Of a DNA stretch of 64,000 nt, positions 2,891 to 53,649 are shown piece by piece. Below the pieces are notes generated by a model that did not search any database, had not been told where the DNA came from, and saw only the letters and a list, made by a program, of their open reading frames with translations. The position numbers and the translations under genes are program-made. Within the stretch, counting starts at the first letter, position 1; each line of letters starts with the position of its first letter. Origin of the DNA: Falsiroseomonas bella (lineage in GTDB: Bacteria; Pseudomonadota; Alphaproteobacteria; Acetobacterales; Acetobacteraceae); the NCBI RefSeq assembly GCF_003173615.1, contig NZ_QGNA01000002.1:372001-436000 (forward strand). Reading direction: 5' to 3'.

Positions 2891-3088
2891 GCGGCGCGCA
2901 CTGCGCGCCGAGGCCGCGAATGCGGCCCGCGCCGAGTGGCGCGAAGCCAAGGCCGCGGATGCGACCGCCCGGCGTCTGAGGGCACCAAAAAGACGCGGCG
3001 CGCACTGCGCGCCGAGGCCGCGAATGCGGCCCGCGCCGAGTGGCGCGAAGCCAAGGCCGCGGATGCGGCCGCCCGGCGTCTGAGGGCA
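2891..3088. repeat. Two tandem copies of a GC-rich repeat (about 94 bp, 104-bp spacing)
   Basis: Unit 1 begins at 2891 and unit 2 at 2995. Each starts GCGGCGCGCACTGCGCGCC, continues through GAGGCCGCGAATGCGGCC and ends CGTCTGAGGGCA, with a single visible substitution (GCGACC versus GCGGCC near the end). A 10-base tail, CCAAAAAGAC, separates the copies. Translated on the plus strand each reads EAANAARAEWREAK. The same core and the same CGTCTGAGGGCA end occur in the 114-bp repeats at 28451-28787, so this is one dispersed repeat family. The 2727-3098 interval holds no other gene that I can support. Confidence 0.9.
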
Positions 3089-3091
3089 AAA

Positions 3092-3133
3092 TAAAAAACC
3101 CACTTTCCTTCCGCAAATCGGAAGGAAAGTGGG
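3092..3133 (-). terminator. Intrinsic terminator of ssrA
   Basis: On the minus strand a perfect 15-bp stem (CCCACTTTCCTTCCG pairing across a 5-base loop, 3099-3133) is followed directly by TTTTTTAT (3098-3091). This is the clearest Rho-independent terminator in the window and lies at the 3' end of the tmRNA gene. Confidence 0.92.
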
Positions 3134-3416
3134 GGGCTTCTGTTGCCCGGCGCCCCCCGAGCCGCGCTTACCTAGTGTTAGGCAGCGAGTGCGACAGCCT
3201 CGCGGCTGTTGTCGTTCGCACTTAGGTTTTAGCCCGATAACGGCGGTACAATGCCGGGCAAAAGCGACCCCTTTACCACGCGCGTCGAGCCTGTTTCGCC
3301 CCCTTGCCAGACCGGCCGACAAGCCGGGGAAGGATGGTGGAGGCGCCGGGCACTGCCCCCGGGTCCGCAACGCTTATGCCGAGTCGTGTTTATCGCCATA
3401 GCCGGCAAGCCGGCAC
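3134..3416 (-). ncRNA. ssrA: Two-piece (circularly permuted) tmRNA
   Basis: Rescues stalled ribosomes by adding a degradation tag. Read on the minus strand, the acceptor piece comes first, ending in GGCGCCTCCACCA with its CCA at 3337-3335. A spacer follows, then the coding piece begins GGGGGCGAAACAGGCTCGAC at 3303. The 5' GGGGGCG of the coding piece pairs over seven bases with CGCCTCC of the acceptor piece, and the third pair is G-U, the alanyl-tRNA synthetase identity element. The tag frame starts with GCG at 3219 and reads ANDNSREAVALAA then TAA at 3180-3178, the expected A-N-D-N start and LAA end. This permuted order is the alphaproteobacterial arrangement. The 5' end near 3416 is estimated. 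Confidence 0.93.
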
Positions 3417-3491
3417 CGACGCATATAGGCGGTCCCGCTACCGGAATCGAGGGGTATCCGGTAGGAAGTCCCGCTTCCAGGGGGACCGGGC

Positions 3492-25420: not shown

Positions 25421-26572
25421 TCACCCATCGCCCGGCCCGGCATCGAGGTCGGCGCCGCGATGCACATAGGCCGACATCAGCACCCCGAAGCCGACCATCG
25501 TCGTCAGCATCGCCGAGCCGCCATGGCTGATCAGCGGCAGCGGCACGCCGCCGACCGGGATGGTGCCGGTCACCATCGCGACGTTCACGAAGACATACAG
25601 GAAGTAGTTGGTCGCCAGCCCCACCGCCAGCAGCCGGCCGAACTGGTGCCGGCTCACCACCGCCACCAGGAAGCCGAAGGCGATCACCGCGGCCAGCAGC
25701 CCCAGCACGCTCAGCGCGCCGACCAGGCCGAACTCCTCGGCGATCATCGTGAAGATGAAGTCGGTCTGCTTTTCCGGCAGGAAGTTCAGGTGCCCCTGCG
25801 TGCCCTGCAGGAAGCCCTTGCCCCACAGACCGCCCGAGCCGAGCGCGATCTTGGACTGGATGATGTTGTAGCCGGCGCCGAGCGGGTCGCTCTCCGGATC
25901 GAGGAAGGTGGTGATCCGCGCCTTCTGGTAGTCATGCAGGTGGTCATAGGCGATGGGTGCCAGCACGCCGATTGCCGCGATCACCAGCGCGAATTTCCAC
26001 AGCCTGACGCCGGCGGCGAAGAACACCGCGCCGCCGATCATCACCGTGATCAGCGCATTGCCCAGGTTCGGCTGCTTGAAGATCAGCGCCGCCGGGATGG
26101 CGATGGCGATCAGCGGCGGCAGCAGGAACAGCGGGTTGCCCATCCGCTCCCAGCTCGCCCGGTGGAACCAGGAGGCGAGCGCCACCACCAGCAGGATCTT
26201 CATCAGCTCGGAAGGCTGCAGCTGCAGCGGGCCGATGTTGATCCAGCGCTGCGCTCCGCCGCCCACCCGGCCATGCAGTTCCACGAGGACCAGCAGCCCG
26301 ACGCCGAAGACGTAGCCAAGCCAGGCGAAGCGCTGGATCAGCCGGATGTCCACCATCGCGATGGACAGCATCACCACCAGGCCGAAGCCGAAGCGGATGG
26401 CGTGGCGCTGCGCATAGGGCTCCGGCGCGCCGCCGCCGGCCGAATACAGCGCCACATAGCCCACCGCCGCCACGCCGCAGAGCAGCAGCACGAAGAGCCA
26501 GGGGATGCGCCAGAATTTCTCGAGCACGCCGGCGCCGCGGTCGCGCAGCAGCAGGCGACGTTCGAAGATCAT
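25421..26572 (-). CDS. rodA: Rod-shape SEDS glycosyltransferase RodA
   Basis: Polymerises lipid II into glycan strands during cell elongation, with PBP2 as its transpeptidase partner. The 383-residue product has about ten membrane segments and the SEDS signatures WINIGPLQLQPSELMKI, GYNIIQSKIALGSGGLWGKG, and LPEKQTDFIFTMIAEEFGLVG, ending with GGVPLPLISHGGSAMLTTM. The ATG at 26572 overlaps the mrdA stop (ATGA). It is the last gene of the mre-mrd operon. Confidence 0.96.
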   Translation of the reverse strand: MIFERRLLLRDRGAGVLEKFWRIPWLFVLLLCGVAAVGYVALYSAGGGAPEPYAQRHAIRFGFGLVVMLSIAMVDIRLIQRFAWLGYVFGVGLLVLVELHGRVGGGAQRWINIGPLQLQPSELMKILLVVALASWFHRASWERMGNPLFLLPPLIAIAIPAALIFKQPNLGNALITVMIGGAVFFAAGVRLWKFALVIAAIGVLAPIAYDHLHDYQKARITTFLDPESDPLGAGYNIIQSKIALGSGGLWGKGFLQGTQGHLNFLPEKQTDFIFTMIAEEFGLVGALSVLGLLAAVIAFGFLVAVVSRHQFGRLLAVGLATNYFLYVFVNVAMVTGTIPVGGVPLPLISHGGSAMLTTMVGFGVLMSAYVHRGADLDAGPGDG

Positions 26573-28443
26573 CGCGGTGTCGCCTCCGCCACGCGTGGCC
26601 CGAGGCCCCCCGGGACGGGGCGCAGCCGCTTGAAGGCCTCCGCCAGCACGTCGCGCGCAAGCGGCGCGGCGGCGCCGGAGCCGCTGGTGCCGTGCTCCAC
26701 CACCACGGCGCAGGCGAAGACCGGGTCGTCATGCGGCGCAAAGCCGACGAACAGCGCATGCGGCCGCCATTCGCGCGGCAGCTGGTCCACCCGGAAGCCG
26801 CGCTCGCGCTGCTCGCGGGAGACACGGCGCACCTGCGTCGTTCCGGTCTTGCCCGCCATCTGCACGCCGAGCTCGGACGGCAGGCGCGAGGTGCGCGCGG
26901 TGCCGCCCTGCTCGTTCACCACCGCCCACATCGCCTCCCGCATCATGCGCAGATGCGTGGCGGGGATGCCGAGGCTCGGCCAGTCCTCCGCGCGGATGCC
27001 GCGCACCGGGCGGCCGCCGATGGCGCGCGTCAGATGCGGCTGCACCGCCCGCCCCGTCGCCAGCCGCGCCGTCATGGTGGCGAGCGAGAGCGGCGTGAGC
27101 TGGTAGAAGCCCTGTCCGATGCCATGCACCACCGTGTCGCCGAGCGCCCAGGGCCTGCCCTGCCCGAGGCGCCACTCGCGCGTCGGCATCAGCCCCGCCT
27201 TCGTTCCCGGCAGCTCGATATCGAGCGGCACGCCGAGGCCGAAGCGGCGCGCCATGGCGGCGATGCGGTCGATGCCGATGCGCTTGGCCATCTCGTAGAA
27301 ATACACGTCGCAGGACACTTTCAGCGCCGTGCGCATGTCCATCCCGCCATGGCCGTAGCGGTTCCAGCAATGGAAGCGCGTGCGGCCGAGATCCATGTGG
27401 CCCGGGCAGTGCACGCGTTCCCCGAAAGTCGTCGCGCGCGCCTCCAGCGCCGCCAGCGCCACCACCATCTTGAAGGTGGAGCCGGGCGCATACAGACCGT
27501 TGGTCGGCTTGTTGATCAGCGGCGTCGCGCGGTTGGCCGTCCATTGCCGCCACTGCGCGGCCGAGACGCCCGAATTGAAGATGTTGGGGTCGAAGGAGGG
27601 CTGGGTGCCGAGCGCCAGCACCTCGCCGTTGCGGGCATCCATCAGCACCACCGAGGTGCCGTCCTGGATCTTCGCGCGCACCGCCTTCTGCAGCTCGGTG
27701 TCGATGCTGATCTGCACGTCGTCGCCCTGCACGCCCTCGCGCCGGTCGAGCTCGCGGATCACCCGCCCGACCGCGTTGACCTCGAGCTGCACCGTGCCGG
27801 CGCGGCCACGCAGGATGCGGTCGTGGTGCCGCTCGACGCCGGCGCGGCCGACGCGGATGCCGGGCAGTTCAAGCAACGGGTCGCCATCCATGTCGCGCTC
27901 GGAGGGCGGGGCGACATAGCCCACGACATGCGCAAGGTGCTCGGCCTCGGGGTAGATGCGCGTGGTGCCGACATCCACGCTGACGCCGGGCAGGTCAGGC
28001 GCGTTCATCTCGATGCGCGCCATCTCCTCCCAGGTCAGGAACTCCCGCACCACCACGGGCACGAAGCGCCGGCGGCGGCGCACGTCGCGTTCCACGCGGG
28101 CGCGTTCCTGCTCGGTCAGGGGCACGATGCGGCTGAAGGTCTCGAGCGTGGCGCCGACATCGGCGGTCTGCTCGGCCACCAGCAGCGCGCGCCAGTTGAG
28201 CTGGTTGGCCGCCACGATGCGGCCCTCGCGGTCCAGCACGCGGCCGCGCGGCGGGGCCAGCAGCCGGGCGGAGAGGCGGTTCTCCTCGGCGAGCGTCGCA
28301 TAGCGCTCGCCTTCCTCCACCTGCAGCCGGTGCAGGCGGTGCGCGAGTACCCCGAGCAGGCCCATCTGCGCCGCGCCCAGCACCAGGGCGCGGCGCGTGA
28401 AGATGCCGCGGGCACGCTCCTCCTCGCGCTGTCGGCGGCTCAT
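26569..28443 (-). CDS. mrdA: Penicillin-binding protein 2 (elongation transpeptidase)
   Basis: Cross-links peptidoglycan in the elongasome. The 624-residue product has an N-terminal membrane anchor (ALVLGAAQMGLLGVLAHRL), the pedestal/dimerisation domain starting RLLAPPRGRVLDREG, and the transpeptidase domain with APGSTFK (active Ser near 320), SCDVYFYEMA (SxD in place of SxN) and MAGKTGTTQV near 530. The ATG at 28443 overlaps the stop of the upstream repeat ORF; the only ribosome-binding-like sequence, GAGGG, is supplied by the end of the repeat itself. Confidence 0.95.
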   Translation of the reverse strand: MSRRQREEERARGIFTRRALVLGAAQMGLLGVLAHRLHRLQVEEGERYATLAEENRLSARLLAPPRGRVLDREGRIVAANQLNWRALLVAEQTADVGATLETFSRIVPLTEQERARVERDVRRRRRFVPVVVREFLTWEEMARIEMNAPDLPGVSVDVGTTRIYPEAEHLAHVVGYVAPPSERDMDGDPLLELPGIRVGRAGVERHHDRILRGRAGTVQLEVNAVGRVIRELDRREGVQGDDVQISIDTELQKAVRAKIQDGTSVVLMDARNGEVLALGTQPSFDPNIFNSGVSAAQWRQWTANRATPLINKPTNGLYAPGSTFKMVVALAALEARATTFGERVHCPGHMDLGRTRFHCWNRYGHGGMDMRTALKVSCDVYFYEMAKRIGIDRIAAMARRFGLGVPLDIELPGTKAGLMPTREWRLGQGRPWALGDTVVHGIGQGFYQLTPLSLATMTARLATGRAVQPHLTRAIGGRPVRGIRAEDWPSLGIPATHLRMMREAMWAVVNEQGGTARTSRLPSELGVQMAGKTGTTQVRRVSREQRERGFRVDQLPREWRPHALFVGFAPHDDPVFACAVVVEHGTSGSGAAAPLARDVLAEAFKRLRPVPGGLGPRVAEATPR

Positions 28444-28838
28444 TTTTTGCTGCCCTCAGACGGCGGGCGGCCGCTCCGCGGCCTTGCCTTCGCGCAGGCC
28501 ACGGGCGCGCGGGCGCGAAGGGCAGGCTGTGCGCGGGCCGCCTTCGCGGCCTCGCAGCTTCGCATGCCCTCAGACGGCGGGCGGCCGCTCCGCGGCCTTG
28601 CCTTCGCGCAGGCCACGGGTGCGCGGGCGGGAAGGGCAGGCTGTGCGCGGGCCGCCTTCGCGGCCTCGCAGCTTCGCATGCCCTCAGACGGCGGGCGGCC
28701 GCGCTGCGGCCTTGCCTGCGCGCAGGCCACGAGCGCGCGGGCGGGAAGGCCGGGGTTTGCGCGGGCCGCCTTCGCGGCCTCGGCACGCGAGGCGCGCCGA
28801 CCGTCGCCTTCCTGGCCGCGTCGGGTGCGCTCGGTCAC
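28440..28838 (-). CDS. Repeat-built ORF inside the mre operon
   Basis: A 132-residue reading frame that starts with GTG overlapping the mreD stop (GTGA, 28838-28835) and ends with TGA overlapping the mrdA start (ATGA, 28443-28440). Most of it is three copies of a 38-residue unit: EAAKAARAQPALPARAPVAC, then AKARPRSGRPPSEGMRSC. The product would be Ala/Arg/Pro-rich, basic and probably unstructured. I recognise no family, and the protein may be a by-product of repeat insertion. The exact coupling at both ends suggests that selection kept the frame open so ribosomes can pass from mreD to mrdA. Confidence 0.4.
   Translation of the reverse strand: MTERTRRGQEGDGRRASRAEAAKAARANPGLPARALVACAQARPQRGRPPSEGMRSCEAAKAARAQPALPARAPVACAKARPRSGRPPSEGMRSCEAAKAARAQPALRARAPVACAKARPRSGRPPSEGSKK
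28451..28787. repeat. Three tandem 114-bp repeats in the mre operon
   Basis: Units start at 28451, 28565 and 28679, each with TGCCCTCAGACGGCGGGCGG and continuing through CTTCGCGGCCTCG. The first two are nearly identical; the third has several changes and a divergent end. The period is exactly 38 codons. On the minus strand each unit ends CGTCTGAGGGCA, the same end as the plus-strand repeats at 2891-3088, with a shared GAGGCCGCGAA core. The 2.9-kb copies lack about 24 bases of the middle. No transposase or target-site duplication is visible. Confidence 0.93.
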
Positions 28839-29380
28839 TCTGCCTCCTCGGCCCGCAGCATCATGGCGTGGAGGCGGCCGAGCAGGAAGGCGAAGGCGGG
28901 GTAGAGGCCGGCCGTCAGCGCGGCTTGGTAGATCGCCGGGGCCGGCGGCGGCAGCGCAAGCGCCATCAGCGCGGTGAGCAGGTAGCCGAGCGCCGCGGCG
29001 CCGGCGGCAAAGACGCAGAAGGCCAGCCAGACCGCCAGGAAGCTCTGCCGCGCCAGAACGCGTCGCGAGGCCAGCGCTAGCCCATGCGCCACGAGCAGCG
29101 TCAGCACCCCGGTCCCGAGCGGCGCCAGCGTCAGCAGATCCTGCAGCAGCCCCAGCAGGAACACCGCCGCCGCCGGCATCGCGCCGGGGCGGAAGATGGA
29201 CCAGAACACCACCTGCGGCAGCGTCACGGCCGGAACCAGGGCCGCCACCCCGGTCGGGCCGCCGGCCACCACCATCGCCAGCATGGCGCAGAGCGTCGGC
29301 AGCACCGCCCGCGCCCAGGCCTCCGCGCGGCGGAGCAGGCCGGGGGAGGGCTGGCGCCGCCCGACCACCTCCGGCCTCAT
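28835..29380 (-). CDS. mreD: Rod shape-determining protein MreD
   Basis: A 181-residue integral membrane protein with five to six hydrophobic segments and the family hallmark LPQVVFWSIFRPGAMPAAAVFLLGLLQDLL. It links MreC, RodA and PBP2 to MreB. ATG at 29380 overlaps the mreC stop by four bases. Its own stop overlaps the GTG of the repeat-built ORF. Confidence 0.9.
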   Translation of the reverse strand: MRPEVVGRRQPSPGLLRRAEAWARAVLPTLCAMLAMVVAGGPTGVAALVPAVTLPQVVFWSIFRPGAMPAAAVFLLGLLQDLLTLAPLGTGVLTLLVAHGLALASRRVLARQSFLAVWLAFCVFAAGAAALGYLLTALMALALPPPAPAIYQAALTAGLYPAFAFLLGRLHAMMLRAEEAE

Positions 29381-30240
29381 CGCCGCGGGCGCGGTTCCGG
29401 CCGCGCGATCGCTTCGGGCGGCAGGATGCCGCCCAGGCCGAAATCGAACAGGCGCACCAGGTCGAGCTGTCCCAGGCGGGCGAACATGTCCACCTCGGGA
29501 ACGCCGGACTCGCTCCAGCGCACCACGCCGACCGGCAGGCCGGCGGGAAAGGAGACGCCCTCCGCGCTGGTCACCAGCCGCTCGCCCTCGGCCGGCCGGA
29601 TGCCTTCGGACCAGTGTTGCAGACGCGGCCGAGGCCCGTTGGTGCCGACCATCATCGCCCGGCCGCGGCTTCCTTCCAGCGTCACCGGGATGCGGCTGTT
29701 CATGTCGGTGGCCAGCAGCACCCGGGCGGAGCGGCGCCCCACCTCGGTCACGCGCCCGACGAAGCCCCGTTCGTCCAGCGCGATCTGGCCGCGGCGCACC
29801 GTGATCTCGGGTGGCGTCGCGATCAGCACGGCCCGGGCATAGACGCCCCCGGCATCGGACACCACGCGTGCCGTCTGGAAGGAGGGCGCGGCCTCCGGGA
29901 TGAAGGCGAGCTGGCGGCGCAGCAGCGCGTTCTCGCTCTCGAGCGCGAGCGCCGCGGCCTGCCAGCGGCGCAGGCGCTCATTCTCCTCGCGCAGCCGGGC
30001 ATTCTCCTCCCGGATCGCCAGCAGCTCGGGAAGGTCCGCGACGACGCCGCGCACCGCGCGCGCCGGCTCGGCGAAGGCGGCGTAGAAGGGGGAGAGCAGG
30101 TCGGCCAGCACCGTGCGCGCCCGCTCCGCCAGCATGGCGTCGGCCTTGCCCAGCAGCATGGTCCCGAAGGCAGCCGCGATCATCACCGGCAGAGACAGCC
30201 GCGACAGCGCCTGGCGGAGCGGGATGCTCAGTCGGATCAA
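29377..30240 (-). CDS. mreC: Rod shape-determining protein MreC
   Basis: A 287-residue bitopic protein: an N-terminal membrane segment (SLPVMIAAAFGTMLLGKADAM), a coiled coil at about residues 70-110 (LAIREENARLREENERLRRW, ESENALLRRQL) and two beta-barrel domains (ITVRRGQIALDERGFVGRVTE, SEGIRPAEGERLVTSAEG). It activates PBP2/RodA in the periplasm. It follows mreB by 53 bases. Confidence 0.94.
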   Translation of the reverse strand: MIRLSIPLRQALSRLSLPVMIAAAFGTMLLGKADAMLAERARTVLADLLSPFYAAFAEPARAVRGVVADLPELLAIREENARLREENERLRRWQAAALALESENALLRRQLAFIPEAAPSFQTARVVSDAGGVYARAVLIATPPEITVRRGQIALDERGFVGRVTEVGRRSARVLLATDMNSRIPVTLEGSRGRAMMVGTNGPRPRLQHWSEGIRPAEGERLVTSAEGVSFPAGLPVGVVRWSESGVPEVDMFARLGQLDLVRLFDFGLGGILPPEAIARPEPRPRR

Positions 30241-50664: not shown

Positions 50665-53649
50665 ATGTCCACGCCGGTCGTCCCGGTCACGGTATCGGGG
50701 ACCGTGCCGGACACCATCTTCGAGAATGCCCGCCCCGGCGACTGGATCGCGACCCTCGATCTCTCGGGGGGCGTGCTCGAGGTTGCGCTCACCGGCGCCG
50801 ACGCCAACCGCTTCGACGCCGCCTTCGACCGCGCCGCGCAGCGCCTTCTGATCACCCCGGTCGAGCGCTTCGACGCCGAGGGCCTGGGCGCCCACGTCTT
50901 CGCTTTCGGTCTTGCGGTCCGCACCGCCGCCGGCTGGCAGGACCTGCCGCAGGGCTGGCAGGTCGCGCTGCGCGACCTGGACGACACGCCGCCGCAGGCG
51001 CTGCGCTTCCTCTCCGGCGGCGCCGTGCTGTCGGATGATCCCGGCGCGGTCATCGGCACGCTCGCCGCAGAGGACCCGGACACGCCCGGCCCGCTCTCCT
51101 ATCGCGTCGCCTGGCCGGACGACGCCTTCTTCGTTGTTGAGGGCGACGTGCTGCGGCTGCGCGACGGCGTCGCCCTCGCCACCCTGGCCGACACGACGCG
51201 CCCCGTGCTGATCGAGGTCTGGGACGGGCTCCAGGGCGCCGCCTTCAGCCTGGACGTCACCATCCTGGCGACCGGCCCGGCGGTGAACGTGATCCTGGGC
51301 ACGGAGGACCCGGATTCCCTCTCGGGCGGCGTGGGGGCCGACTTCATCCTCGGCCTTGGCGGCAATGACGGGATCAACGGCGGCGCCGGCAACGACATCC
51401 TGGAGGGTTGGGCGGGCAACGACGCCCTGGACGGCAGCCTCGGCAACGACACGCTCGACGGCGGGGCGGGCAACGACGTCATCTGGGGCGGCGGCGGCGG
51501 CGGCGGCAACGACGTGCTGCGCGGTGGCGAGGGCAACGACACGCTGCGCGGGCAGAACGGCGAGGACACGCTGGATGGCGGCGCCGGCCGCGACGTGCTG
51601 GACGGCAATGCCGGGCAGGACTCGCTCGATGGCGGCGAGGGCGACGATCTGCTCAACGGCAGCGCCGGCAACGACACGCTGTCCGGCGGCGCCGGCAACG
51701 ACACGCTGATTGGCGGCACCGAACTCGCGTGGCTCGACGGCGGCGACGGCGCGGACTCGCTGCTCGGCGGCGCCTCGGGCGACACGCTGCTCGGCGGCGA
51801 GGGTGCGGACACGCTCGATGGCGGCGGGGGCGCGGACCTGCTGGCCGGCGGCGCGGGCGACGACACCTATGTTCTGTCGGGGCCGGGGCCCGCGATCACC
51901 GAAGCCGAGGACGAAGGCTTCGACACGATGATCGTCGGCTTCGCCGCGACCATCGCCGGCGGCGTGGAAGTCCTGCGCCTGCGCGAAGGCGCGGGCGACC
52001 TCGCGGCCTATGGCGCCGCCCTGGCCGACCGCCTCCTCGGCAACGCCGGCGCCAACCTGCTGGCCGGGGCGGGCGGCGCGGACACGCTGGATGGCGCGGA
52101 CGGCGCCGACACGCTCGATGGCGGGGAGGGGGGCGACGTGCTGCTCGGCGGCAACGGCGCCGACAGCCTCGCCGGCGGCGCGGGCGCCGACCGTCTGGAA
52201 GGCGGGGCGGATGCCGACACGCTGGATGGCGGGGCGGATGCGGATTCGGCGGAGGGTGGAGAGGGCAGCGACCTGCTGCTCGGCGCGGATGGCGCCGACT
52301 CGCTGGAGGGGGGCGCCGGCAACGACACGGTCTCGGGCGGCGGCGGCGACGATGCGCTCTCGGGCGGGGCGGGAGTGGACAGCCTTGCCGGCGGCCTCGG
52401 CGCCGATCTGCTGGACGGCGGGACCGAGGATGACACGCTCGCCGGCGCCGAAGGCGACGACACGCTGCGCGGCGCCGAGGGCAACGACCGGCTGCAGGGT
52501 GAAGCCGAGGCCGACCTGATCGATGGCGGGGCAGGGCTCGACACGCTGGAGGGCGGCGCGGGCGACGACCTGCTGCTTGGGGGCGCCGGTGCCGACAGCC
52601 TGATCGGCGGCCTCGGCGCCGACACGCTCCTCGGCGGCGCGGATGCGGACACGCTGGCCGGCGGCGACGCGCCCGACCTGCTGCGCGGGGAGGACGGGAA
52701 CGATTCGCTGCGCGGCGACGCGGCCGAGGACGTGCTCGAGGGCGGCGCCGGAAATGACCGGCTGCGCGGCGGCACGGGGAACGATGCGCTGCTGGGCGAG
52801 ACCGGCGACGACTCGCTGCAGGGGGAGGATGGCGACGACCTGCTTTCGGGCAATGCGGGCGGCGACGTGCTGGACGGCGGCGACGGCAGGGACCTCCTGC
52901 TCGGAGGCGACGGCAACGATTCGCTCGTGGGCGGAGCCGGCGACGACACGCTTGCCGGTGGCCGCGATGCCGACATGCTGGACGGCGGATCGGGCCGGGA
53001 CAGGCTGGATGGCGGGGGCGGGGACGACCTGCTGCGTGCCGGCCCCGACGGCGGCGCCGAGCTGCGCGGGGGGGAGGGGGCCGACACGCTGGATGGGACG
53101 GCCGGCGAGGGAGTCGGCAGCCTGTTGATCGGCGGCCTCGGCAACGACACCTACCTGGTGGATGCGCTGTCCGATCGCCTGCTGGAAGAGCCCGGCGCGG
53201 GCATCGACACGGTCCGCGCGCTGCTGGAGGCGGGCGCCTACGCCCTGCCTGCCGACCTGGAGCAACTCGTGCTGCTCGGCGGCACGCTGACGGGGCACGG
53301 CAATGCGCTGGCCAACCGCATCGAGGGCAACGAGCTGGCGAACCTGCTGACCGGCGGCGCGGCGGCTGACACCCTGATCGGCGGCGCAGGCAGGGACACG
53401 CTGATCGGCGGACAGGGCCAGGACGTCTTCGTGCTCGGAGCCGGCGCCGGGGCGGACGTGATCTCCGATTTCCGGCCCGGAGAGGATGTGCTGATGCTCG
53501 CTGGCGCCGGCCACGCGACCGCCGCGGCGGCGCTTGCGGCGTTCCGCGCCGTCGGCGGCGGGCTTGAGCTGCCGATCACCGGCGGCTCGGTGCTGCTGGA
53601 AGGCATCGCCGCCGGCACGCTGCGCGCCCAGGACATCCTGATCGGCTGA
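50665..53649 (+). CDS. RTX-type calcium-binding repeat protein
   Basis: A 994-residue protein without a Sec signal. Residues about 90-205 resemble a cadherin-like domain (LDDTPPQALRFLSGGAVLSD, LAAEDPDTPGPLSYRV). Two large blocks of GGxGxDxLxG nonapeptides follow, about 210-400 and 455-815, separated by a non-repeat segment (EAEDEGFDTMIVGFAATIAG). The C-terminal 170 residues include GGLGNDTYLVDALSDRLLEE and a final block with LGAGAGADVISDFRPGEDVL, typical of RTX proteins exported by type I secretion. The product would fold outside the cell on binding calcium. No T1SS genes are in the window. Role unknown (adhesin, S-layer-like or enzyme carrier). Confidence 0.88.
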   Translation: MSTPVVPVTVSGTVPDTIFENARPGDWIATLDLSGGVLEVALTGADANRFDAAFDRAAQRLLITPVERFDAEGLGAHVFAFGLAVRTAAGWQDLPQGWQVALRDLDDTPPQALRFLSGGAVLSDDPGAVIGTLAAEDPDTPGPLSYRVAWPDDAFFVVEGDVLRLRDGVALATLADTTRPVLIEVWDGLQGAAFSLDVTILATGPAVNVILGTEDPDSLSGGVGADFILGLGGNDGINGGAGNDILEGWAGNDALDGSLGNDTLDGGAGNDVIWGGGGGGGNDVLRGGEGNDTLRGQNGEDTLDGGAGRDVLDGNAGQDSLDGGEGDDLLNGSAGNDTLSGGAGNDTLIGGTELAWLDGGDGADSLLGGASGDTLLGGEGADTLDGGGGADLLAGGAGDDTYVLSGPGPAITEAEDEGFDTMIVGFAATIAGGVEVLRLREGAGDLAAYGAALADRLLGNAGANLLAGAGGADTLDGADGADTLDGGEGGDVLLGGNGADSLAGGAGADRLEGGADADTLDGGADADSAEGGEGSDLLLGADGADSLEGGAGNDTVSGGGGDDALSGGAGVDSLAGGLGADLLDGGTEDDTLAGAEGDDTLRGAEGNDRLQGEAEADLIDGGAGLDTLEGGAGDDLLLGGAGADSLIGGLGADTLLGGADADTLAGGDAPDLLRGEDGNDSLRGDAAEDVLEGGAGNDRLRGGTGNDALLGETGDDSLQGEDGDDLLSGNAGGDVLDGGDGRDLLLGGDGNDSLVGGAGDDTLAGGRDADMLDGGSGRDRLDGGGGDDLLRAGPDGGAELRGGEGADTLDGTAGEGVGSLLIGGLGNDTYLVDALSDRLLEEPGAGIDTVRALLEAGAYALPADLEQLVLLGGTLTGHGNALANRIEGNELANLLTGGAAADTLIGGAGRDTLIGGQGQDVFVLGAGAGADVISDFRPGEDVLMLAGAGHATAAAALAAFRAVGGGLELPITGGSVLLEGIAAGTLRAQDILIG

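Follow-up and report, generated by a model that had tools for sequence, protein, structure and literature searches.

In the window (the whole 64,000-nt stretch of Falsiroseomonas bella DNA that was analysed), mreD and mrdA are separated by three tandem units of an interspersed repeat. From the comparisons described here, we consider it likely that this repeat lodged in a stop-start overlap between the two genes and that the spacer has been kept as a bridge ORF, which would pass ribosomes from gene to gene. The operon anatomy, the repeat family, the empty sites found at ccmD-ccmE, and the kept phase and openness of the spacers can all be read from the sequences compared. Selection seems to act on the link between the genes and not on a protein, since the bridge peptides are not conserved.

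A dispersed repeat in the mre operon

The operon runs on the minus strand in the order mreC, mreD, a 132-codon ORF, mrdA and a presumed rodA-like gene. The features, in positions of the window, are:

29377..30240, minus strand: mreC (Pfam PF04085, E 5.9e-20)
28835..29380, minus strand: mreD (Pfam PF04093, E 3.1e-8)
28835..28838, minus strand: GTGA, start of the bridge ORF inside the mreD stop
28440..28838, minus strand: bridge ORF between mreD and mrdA, 132 codons, GTG start
28679..28792, minus strand: repeat unit 1, at 84% to the reference copy and first to be transcribed (repeat tool)
28565..28678, minus strand: repeat unit 2, 98% to the reference copy (repeat tool)
28451..28564, minus strand: repeat unit 3, the reference copy, last before mrdA (repeat tool)
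28452..28462, minus strand: conserved 3' core CGTCTGAGGGC with GAGG
28444..28451, minus strand: A-rich 8-nt spacer from the core to the mrdA ATG
28440..28443, minus strand: ATGA, mrdA start overlapping the bridge ORF stop (TGA)
26569..28443, minus strand: mrdA (PBP2; PF00905 transpeptidase, 1.3e-63, and PF03717 dimerisation domain)
25421..26572, minus strand: rodA-like gene, downstream of mrdA and overlapping its end
3128..3454, minus strand: tmRNA gene
2891..3088, plus strand: another tandem pair from the repeat family (104-bp unit), past the 3' end of the tmRNA gene

The original prediction had placed three 114-bp units between mreD and mrdA and had a frame join the two genes, by way of GTGA at the mreD end and ATGA at the mrdA end; both points are confirmed. 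Three direct repeats (28451-28792) make up the bulk of the 132 codons; TRF reports a period of 114 with 2.9 copies and a score of 594 (28451-28782), and the repeat tool gives a spacing of exactly 114 bp. The further claim that the unit measures exactly 38 codons holds for this array without being general to the repeat, as the 104-bp unit at 2891-3088 demonstrates. The frame is kept junction by junction, and not through the unit length of the repeat.

The array is no chance product, as its unit recurs across the genome. A query with the unit returned 49 blastn matches at E<=1e-3 in the 5.9-Mb F. bella genome (the array itself counted), and the end motif CGTCTGAGGGCA occurs there 26 times exactly, as compared to 0 occurrences of the backwards-read pattern. 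All 15 genomes of our genus set carry matches to a composite query, at 17 to 57 per genome (a rough count, in which part of the candidates was scored). An 11-base core is present in 91 of 150 family genomes, with counts of 20+19 in F. bella, 9+11 in G002, 7+10 in G086, 4+8 in G025, 5+7 in G117 and 5+5 in G029, and of 0 to 3, about the level of the backwards control, in most of the 150.

We read 45 core copies of the F. bella genome with their surroundings; further exact cores, for example at C1:425512 and C1:1001099, lie outside this survey. The 45 copies fall into 38 sites, of which 13 lie in sense and 18 in antisense between co-directional genes, six between convergent genes and one, the tandem pair at 2891-3088, in a divergent context. 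None of the 45 is spanned by a gene called in this genome with a simple codon-usage gene finder. These observations confirm that the unit is a member of a dispersed, hairpin-rich, intergenic repeat family. Tandem copy number varies within it: in addition to the three units at mreD-mrdA, a gene pair at C1:249735 holds three full end motifs in G008 and one in G000. With regard to a MITE, NTGA stands on both sides of filled sites, which fits a 4-bp target-site duplication, yet the two are often not identical, and no terminal inverted repeats were seen by eye in the copy alignment.

By eye, the unit is modular: it has up to three hairpins, a middle part that can be missing and an end of the type CCCGGCGTCTGAGGGC. 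A hairpin tally indicates that stems vary while loops stay steady (GAAN in the second hairpin, GGA or GGAN in the last). Over all 45 copies the consensus fold is weak, as the alignment suffers from nested repeats and from the middle module that only some copies have; the stem variation is therefore taken from the tally and not from a covariance model. A second small palindromic repeat (GTCACGCC...GGCGTGC...GGCACGACG or near it) is nested in the element copies L015, L031, L158, L234, L235 and L120, and three matches to the repeat family follow in succession at G014:C1:1005330-1005679.

A known RNA family was sought with Rfam at gathering thresholds and rejected, the three matches in the window being two tmRNA models for one gene and one tRNA. 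Among the open-licence literature matches listed, none describes the repeat in Roseomonas-type bacteria. Elsewhere in the window, TRF finds many 27-bp tandem repeats at 51361-53424; their consensus is, we assume, like that of glycine/aspartate-rich RTX repeats, and they presumably belong to a large repeat protein.

This structure raises the question of whether the repeat acts chiefly through RNA or DNA structure (as an mRNA stabiliser, processing site or ribosome-binding module), with the open frame secondary. Stems that vary while loops stay are in line with this, as is the strong fold of the RNA around the last unit and the mrdA start (z-score -2.35; -2.15 for the whole spacer). At 8 of the 13 sense sites that were read in F. 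bella, mrdA included, the core also lies exactly 8 nt from the downstream start codon, for which reason its GAGG, 10 nt before the mrdA ATG, could be a Shine-Dalgarno sequence. A structural role leaves unexplained, however, both the kept phase and the bridging by antisense copies or element-free spacers described below, and we regard it as an unlikely account of the spacer.

The mreD-mrdA junction in relatives

In the genus set, 14 mreD-mrdA junctions are readable, that of F. bella included, the one in G005 being cut by a contig end. Only in G002 do the two genes overlap directly in ATGA. The other 13 have spacers of 13 different lengths (118, 121, 136, 159, 160, 163, 172, 184, 229, 250, 295, 316 and 391 nt), 12 of which (11 of 12 without F. 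bella) are 1 mod 3; only in this phase can a frame that opens in the NTGA of the mreD stop close in the ATGA where mrdA begins. No internal stop interrupts any of the 13 between the end of mreD and the closing stop at the mrdA start, and in 12 cases that stop lies exactly in ATGA. The sole change of phase, in G009 (159 nt), is bridged nonetheless, from a TTGA start to a stop that precedes the mrdA ATG by 4 nt. The proposal that length and frame are selected for harmless insertion is supported by these spacers, and the search for out-of-frame changes or stops within the genus did not refute it. Since 7 of 14 inner forks are open in a MrdA tree (14 genus rows, 3 outgroups), the direct overlap in G002 is compatible with an insert that was lost and with one that was never there.

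The original prediction had offered a real small Ala/Arg/Pro-rich protein as the other possibility. An intact ORF of 132 codons within the mre operon speaks for such a protein, but the bridge peptides of the genus range from 41 to 132 aa and have little in common beyond their repeat-derived parts, and one genus member (L125) has no ORF between mreD and mrdA. In F. bella, Pfam returns a single sub-threshold match for the ORF (13 bits, cut-off 27), and the codon-usage gene finder does not call it. We find a genuine protein extremely improbable.

Beyond the genus, we scanned named genomes and took the best 80 of 280 loci, 76 of which have both mrdA and mreD matches. A possible mrdA start lies at -4 of the mreD stop (NTGA) in 46 of the 76, and this overlap is likely the ancestral state. 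The remaining 30 have no start candidate at -4; the ORF from NTGA ends exactly in a listed start candidate in 19 of them and does not in 11, a count that uses a lenient choice of start and in which some of the 19 are genus members. Among the 19 bridged loci, some hold the repeat and others duplicated mrdA starts or a 10-nt gap. In these sequences the bridging rule is looser outside the genus, and the evidence for frame selection is strongest inside it. Separately, the mrdA start region is duplicated or triplicated between mreD and mrdA at L042 (3779-3988) and L047 (825-978), which gives rise to short ORFs connected through ATGA overlaps.

Bridged spacers at other junctions

We compared five further gene pairs, chosen from sense copies known to be bridged in F. 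bella, and an ABC-transporter pair chosen likewise from an antisense copy. With mreD-mrdA counted as well, the seven pairs have 58 spacers of at least 15 nt, 40 of which are bridged (33 of 51 without F. bella); it should be noted that the strict element pattern used in this count misses the diverged copies L120, L186, L195, L197, L234 and L235, which were put under 'other'.

The ccmD-ccmE pair supplies the empty sites, with a direct 4-nt overlap in 11 of 15 genus genomes. Repeat spacers occupy the junction in the other four; three of them are exactly bridged (127, 142 and 145 nt), while that of G002 (255 nt) holds a chain of two coupled ORFs. Without F. bella, two of three are 1 mod 3. The pair at C1:249735 was found in 13 of the 15 genomes, and its eight spacers after an NTGA stop (22, 31, 109, 124, 136, 169, 178 and 349 nt, the last with three repeat units inside) are all 1 mod 3 and exactly bridged, seven of seven remaining in phase without F. 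bella. The spacer of G010 (291 nt, CTGA stop) is not bridged, and the remainder are a direct overlap in one genome and 3-nt gaps after TAG in three.

The other pairs are more varied. The trpA-accD pair is syntenic in 4 of 15 genomes and bridged in three of these, once through a chain, G002 being the unbridged case. At coaE-dnaQ, three of four repeat-bearing spacers are bridged and the fourth follows a TAA stop; four other spacers are unbridged, giving five of eight in all, and the pair has direct or very short junctions in six genomes and is not syntenic in one. At flgF-flgG, 6 of 14 spacers are bridged and 8 are not. As a separate observation, extra copies of the flgG start region (ATGCG..AGCCTGCACATCGCC) produce short ORFs before the true start in the flgF-flgG spacers L214, L216, L222 and L223.

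Junctions that had not been chosen for their bridges were drawn from the scan loci (best 80 of 280) outside mreD-mrdA, as spacers of 20-400 nt with the motif in either orientation. Ten were found. Eight are repeat-bearing spacers between mrdA and rodA, from the sister genera Roseococcus and Rubritepida and from related loci, all bridged at eight different lengths (88, 91, 94, 124, 133, 145, 147 and 155), with a stop that overlaps or adjoins the rodA start (TAATG in five). The remaining two are mreB-mreC gaps, which are unbridged and in which the motif looks fortuitous. In the sequences compared, the bridge pattern is weaker at coaE-dnaQ and flgF-flgG than at ccmD-ccmE, C1:249735 and mrdA-rodA.

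At the ABC-transporter pair, the repeat lies antisense in F. bella and in G005, and both spacers are exactly bridged. In these two genomes the upstream gene ends in TTTTGA, which offers a TTG start, and in the other 12 of the 14 read it ends in TTCTGA. In G008 a repeat-free spacer of 70 nt is bridged too. Three short spacers (17-29 nt) are unbridged; in these the overlapping ATG starts a frame continuous with the next gene. At L232, L233 and L244, too, a spacer that lacks the element is bridged. Since antisense copies and repeat-free spacers are bridged as well, it seems to be the operon junction, and not the repeat, that imposes the constraint. Consistent with this, the 45 copies hold 21 stops in sense and 22 in antisense, and a repeat designed to lack stops in its sense strand was rejected as an explanation.

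Stops are rare at such GC content, and any spacer might look open by chance. Single spacers are indeed open in 28-85% of dinucleotide shuffles, and motif-free spacers after NTGA are bridged in 21 of 68 cases at the scan loci (best 80 of 280), where 32 of the 68 are already 1 mod 3, in 4 of 16 at the F. bella loci (some counted twice) and in 0 of 2 in the window. Chance openness does not account for phase, however. Taking the NTGA/ATGA pairs of mreD-mrdA, ccmD-ccmE and C1:249735 together, 23 of 25 spacers are 1 mod 3 (20 of 22 without F. bella), where one third is expected; the binomial probability of 1.5e-9 assumes independence, but the species are related and the junction counts are hence not independent. 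All 23 in-phase spacers are open, as compared to 13.96 expected from the shuffles. In a phase control over 30 repeat-bearing junctions, the ORF ends at most 4 nt from the next start in 28 in the real phase and in 3 and 4 in the other phases (22, 3 and 3 of 24 without the six F. bella rows); among the 28, L212 lacks a start codon where the upstream gene stops, and the element pattern of this control misses L130 and L211. With phase kept as well as openness, we hold a chance open frame to be very improbable.

Kept phase might instead be a mechanical outcome, if the element always entered NTGA with a 4-bp duplication and had a fixed, frame-neutral length, so that no later selection would be needed. 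The empty ccmD-ccmE sites are direct NTGA overlaps and filled sites have NTGA on both sides, as this account predicts. Lengths nevertheless differ within the mreD-mrdA, ccmD-ccmE and C1:249735 junctions, partly through other hairpins or nested repeats, and phase is kept in 23 of 25 all the same; bridged spacers without the element also fall outside it. Moreover, the antisense spacers of F. bella are spread evenly over the phases (7, 5 and 6 of 18). We therefore judge a purely mechanical origin distinctly unlikely.

Taken together, the sites of the F. bella genome itself give a mixed picture. A loose criterion, which lets the ORF start from -4 to +11 relative to the stop before it and end up to 12 nt from the following start, counts 12 of 13 sense spacers and 10 of 18 antisense ones as bridged; a stricter criterion, with the start fixed at -4 and the end no more than 4 nt away from the following start, counts 7 of 13 and 3 of 18. 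Of the motif-bearing gaps at the F. bella loci, counted in both orientations and some of them twice, 9 are bridged, out of 30 in all and 19 after NTGA.

Translational coupling and known systems

We propose that the array, a tandem triplet of the dispersed intergenic repeat, occupies a former 4-nt stop-start overlap (NTGA) of mreD and mrdA. A ribosome ending mreD would restart at the overlapping GTG, translate the repeats, stop at the TGA of the bridge and restart at the overlapping ATG of mrdA, so that the bridge ORF would amount to two short overlaps in series and coupling would be restored. The peptide would be a by-product. In E. coli and Haloferax, next to no termination-reinitiation is left once a spacer reaches about 20 nt (PMC10666635), and genes moved 118-391 nt apart by an insertion would hence be expected to lose their coupling. 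The spacer would be held by selection as a bridge ORF because mreD and mrdA are, presumably, translationally coupled. As the GC-rich spacer RNA folds strongly, passing ribosomes would also keep it open and the mrdA start accessible. Left untranslated, the RNA would invite Rho, whose link with polarity is described in PMC12548453, and the benefit would lie in coupling or in protection from polarity. Translation of the frame, reinitiation at its ends, the use of GAGG as a ribosome-binding site and this benefit are what we infer from the arrangement.

A more general rule for operons such as these can be put forward only tentatively, and we lean slightly against it: DNA inserted between coupled genes, be it the repeat in either orientation, a duplicated gene start or unrelated sequence, may tend to persist only if or until a bridge ORF or chain forms, and interspersed repeats may have exploited this independently in at least two phyla. 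The junctions provide a natural replicated experiment on translational coupling, with many species, several operons and varied spacer lengths in which phase is kept, and they help to tell insertion-site preference from later selection on frame. They also carry a warning for annotation, as such ORFs look like genes for small proteins, while their only role is probably that of a ribosome bridge.

Rickettsia palindromic elements (RPEs) are read in frame and located inside protein genes. Our repeat resembles them as a palindromic repeat of Alphaproteobacteria that can be read in frame, but RPEs are ruled out by their intragenic position, none of the 45 copies read here lying within a called gene. 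GTAG/CGTC-tagged REPs are small palindromes of 20-40 bp, mostly intergenic, and CGTC repeats are reported missing in Acetobacteraceae (PMC3733652). The present repeat shares with the CGTC type its palindromes, its mostly intergenic position and a CGTC in the core; a CGTC-tagged REP is nonetheless ruled out, since the unit exceeds 100 nt, has several stems and carries CGTC inside its end module and not as a terminal tag. A RAYT-driven REP is likewise ruled out, as Y1_Tnp (PF01797) occurs in 0 of 15 genus genomes and in 5 of 14 control genomes. With termination-reinitiation systems, described for overlapping genes in PMC6728339 and PMC10666635, the junction has in common an ATGA/TGATG coupling that the bridge apparently preserves; in those systems the genes overlap or nearly touch, whereas at this junction a spacer divides the overlap and an overlap is formed anew at either end of it.

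The nearest known case belongs to another phylum. Mycobacterial interspersed repetitive units (MIRUs), reportedly described by Supply et al. in 1997, are likewise interspersed, tandem-capable repeats of variable copy number. According to PMC12548453, MIRUs are apparently mobile, insert at start codons and contain an internal ORF coupled at -4 nt; the ORF in our repeat overlaps its neighbours by the same 4 nt (NTGA), a likeness of anatomy. MIRU units measure 46-101 bp (PMC3914561), those in the window 104 and 114 bp. The present repeat further differs in its modular hairpins, in a frame that is kept despite drift in spacer length, and in bridging that extends to antisense copies and to spacers without the repeat, and its nearest named MrdA is that of Roseomonas sp. 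AR75 (88%, among the best 80 of 280 loci). The host phylum, unit length and structure thus keep us from filing it as a MIRU, and the likeness drawn here is one of anatomy and proposed mode of action, between unrelated lineages. Since relatives keep the stop-start link despite differing spacer lengths, it seems that the repeat is tolerated because ribosomes translate through it, much as with MIRUs, which would extend the MIRU strategy to Alphaproteobacteria.
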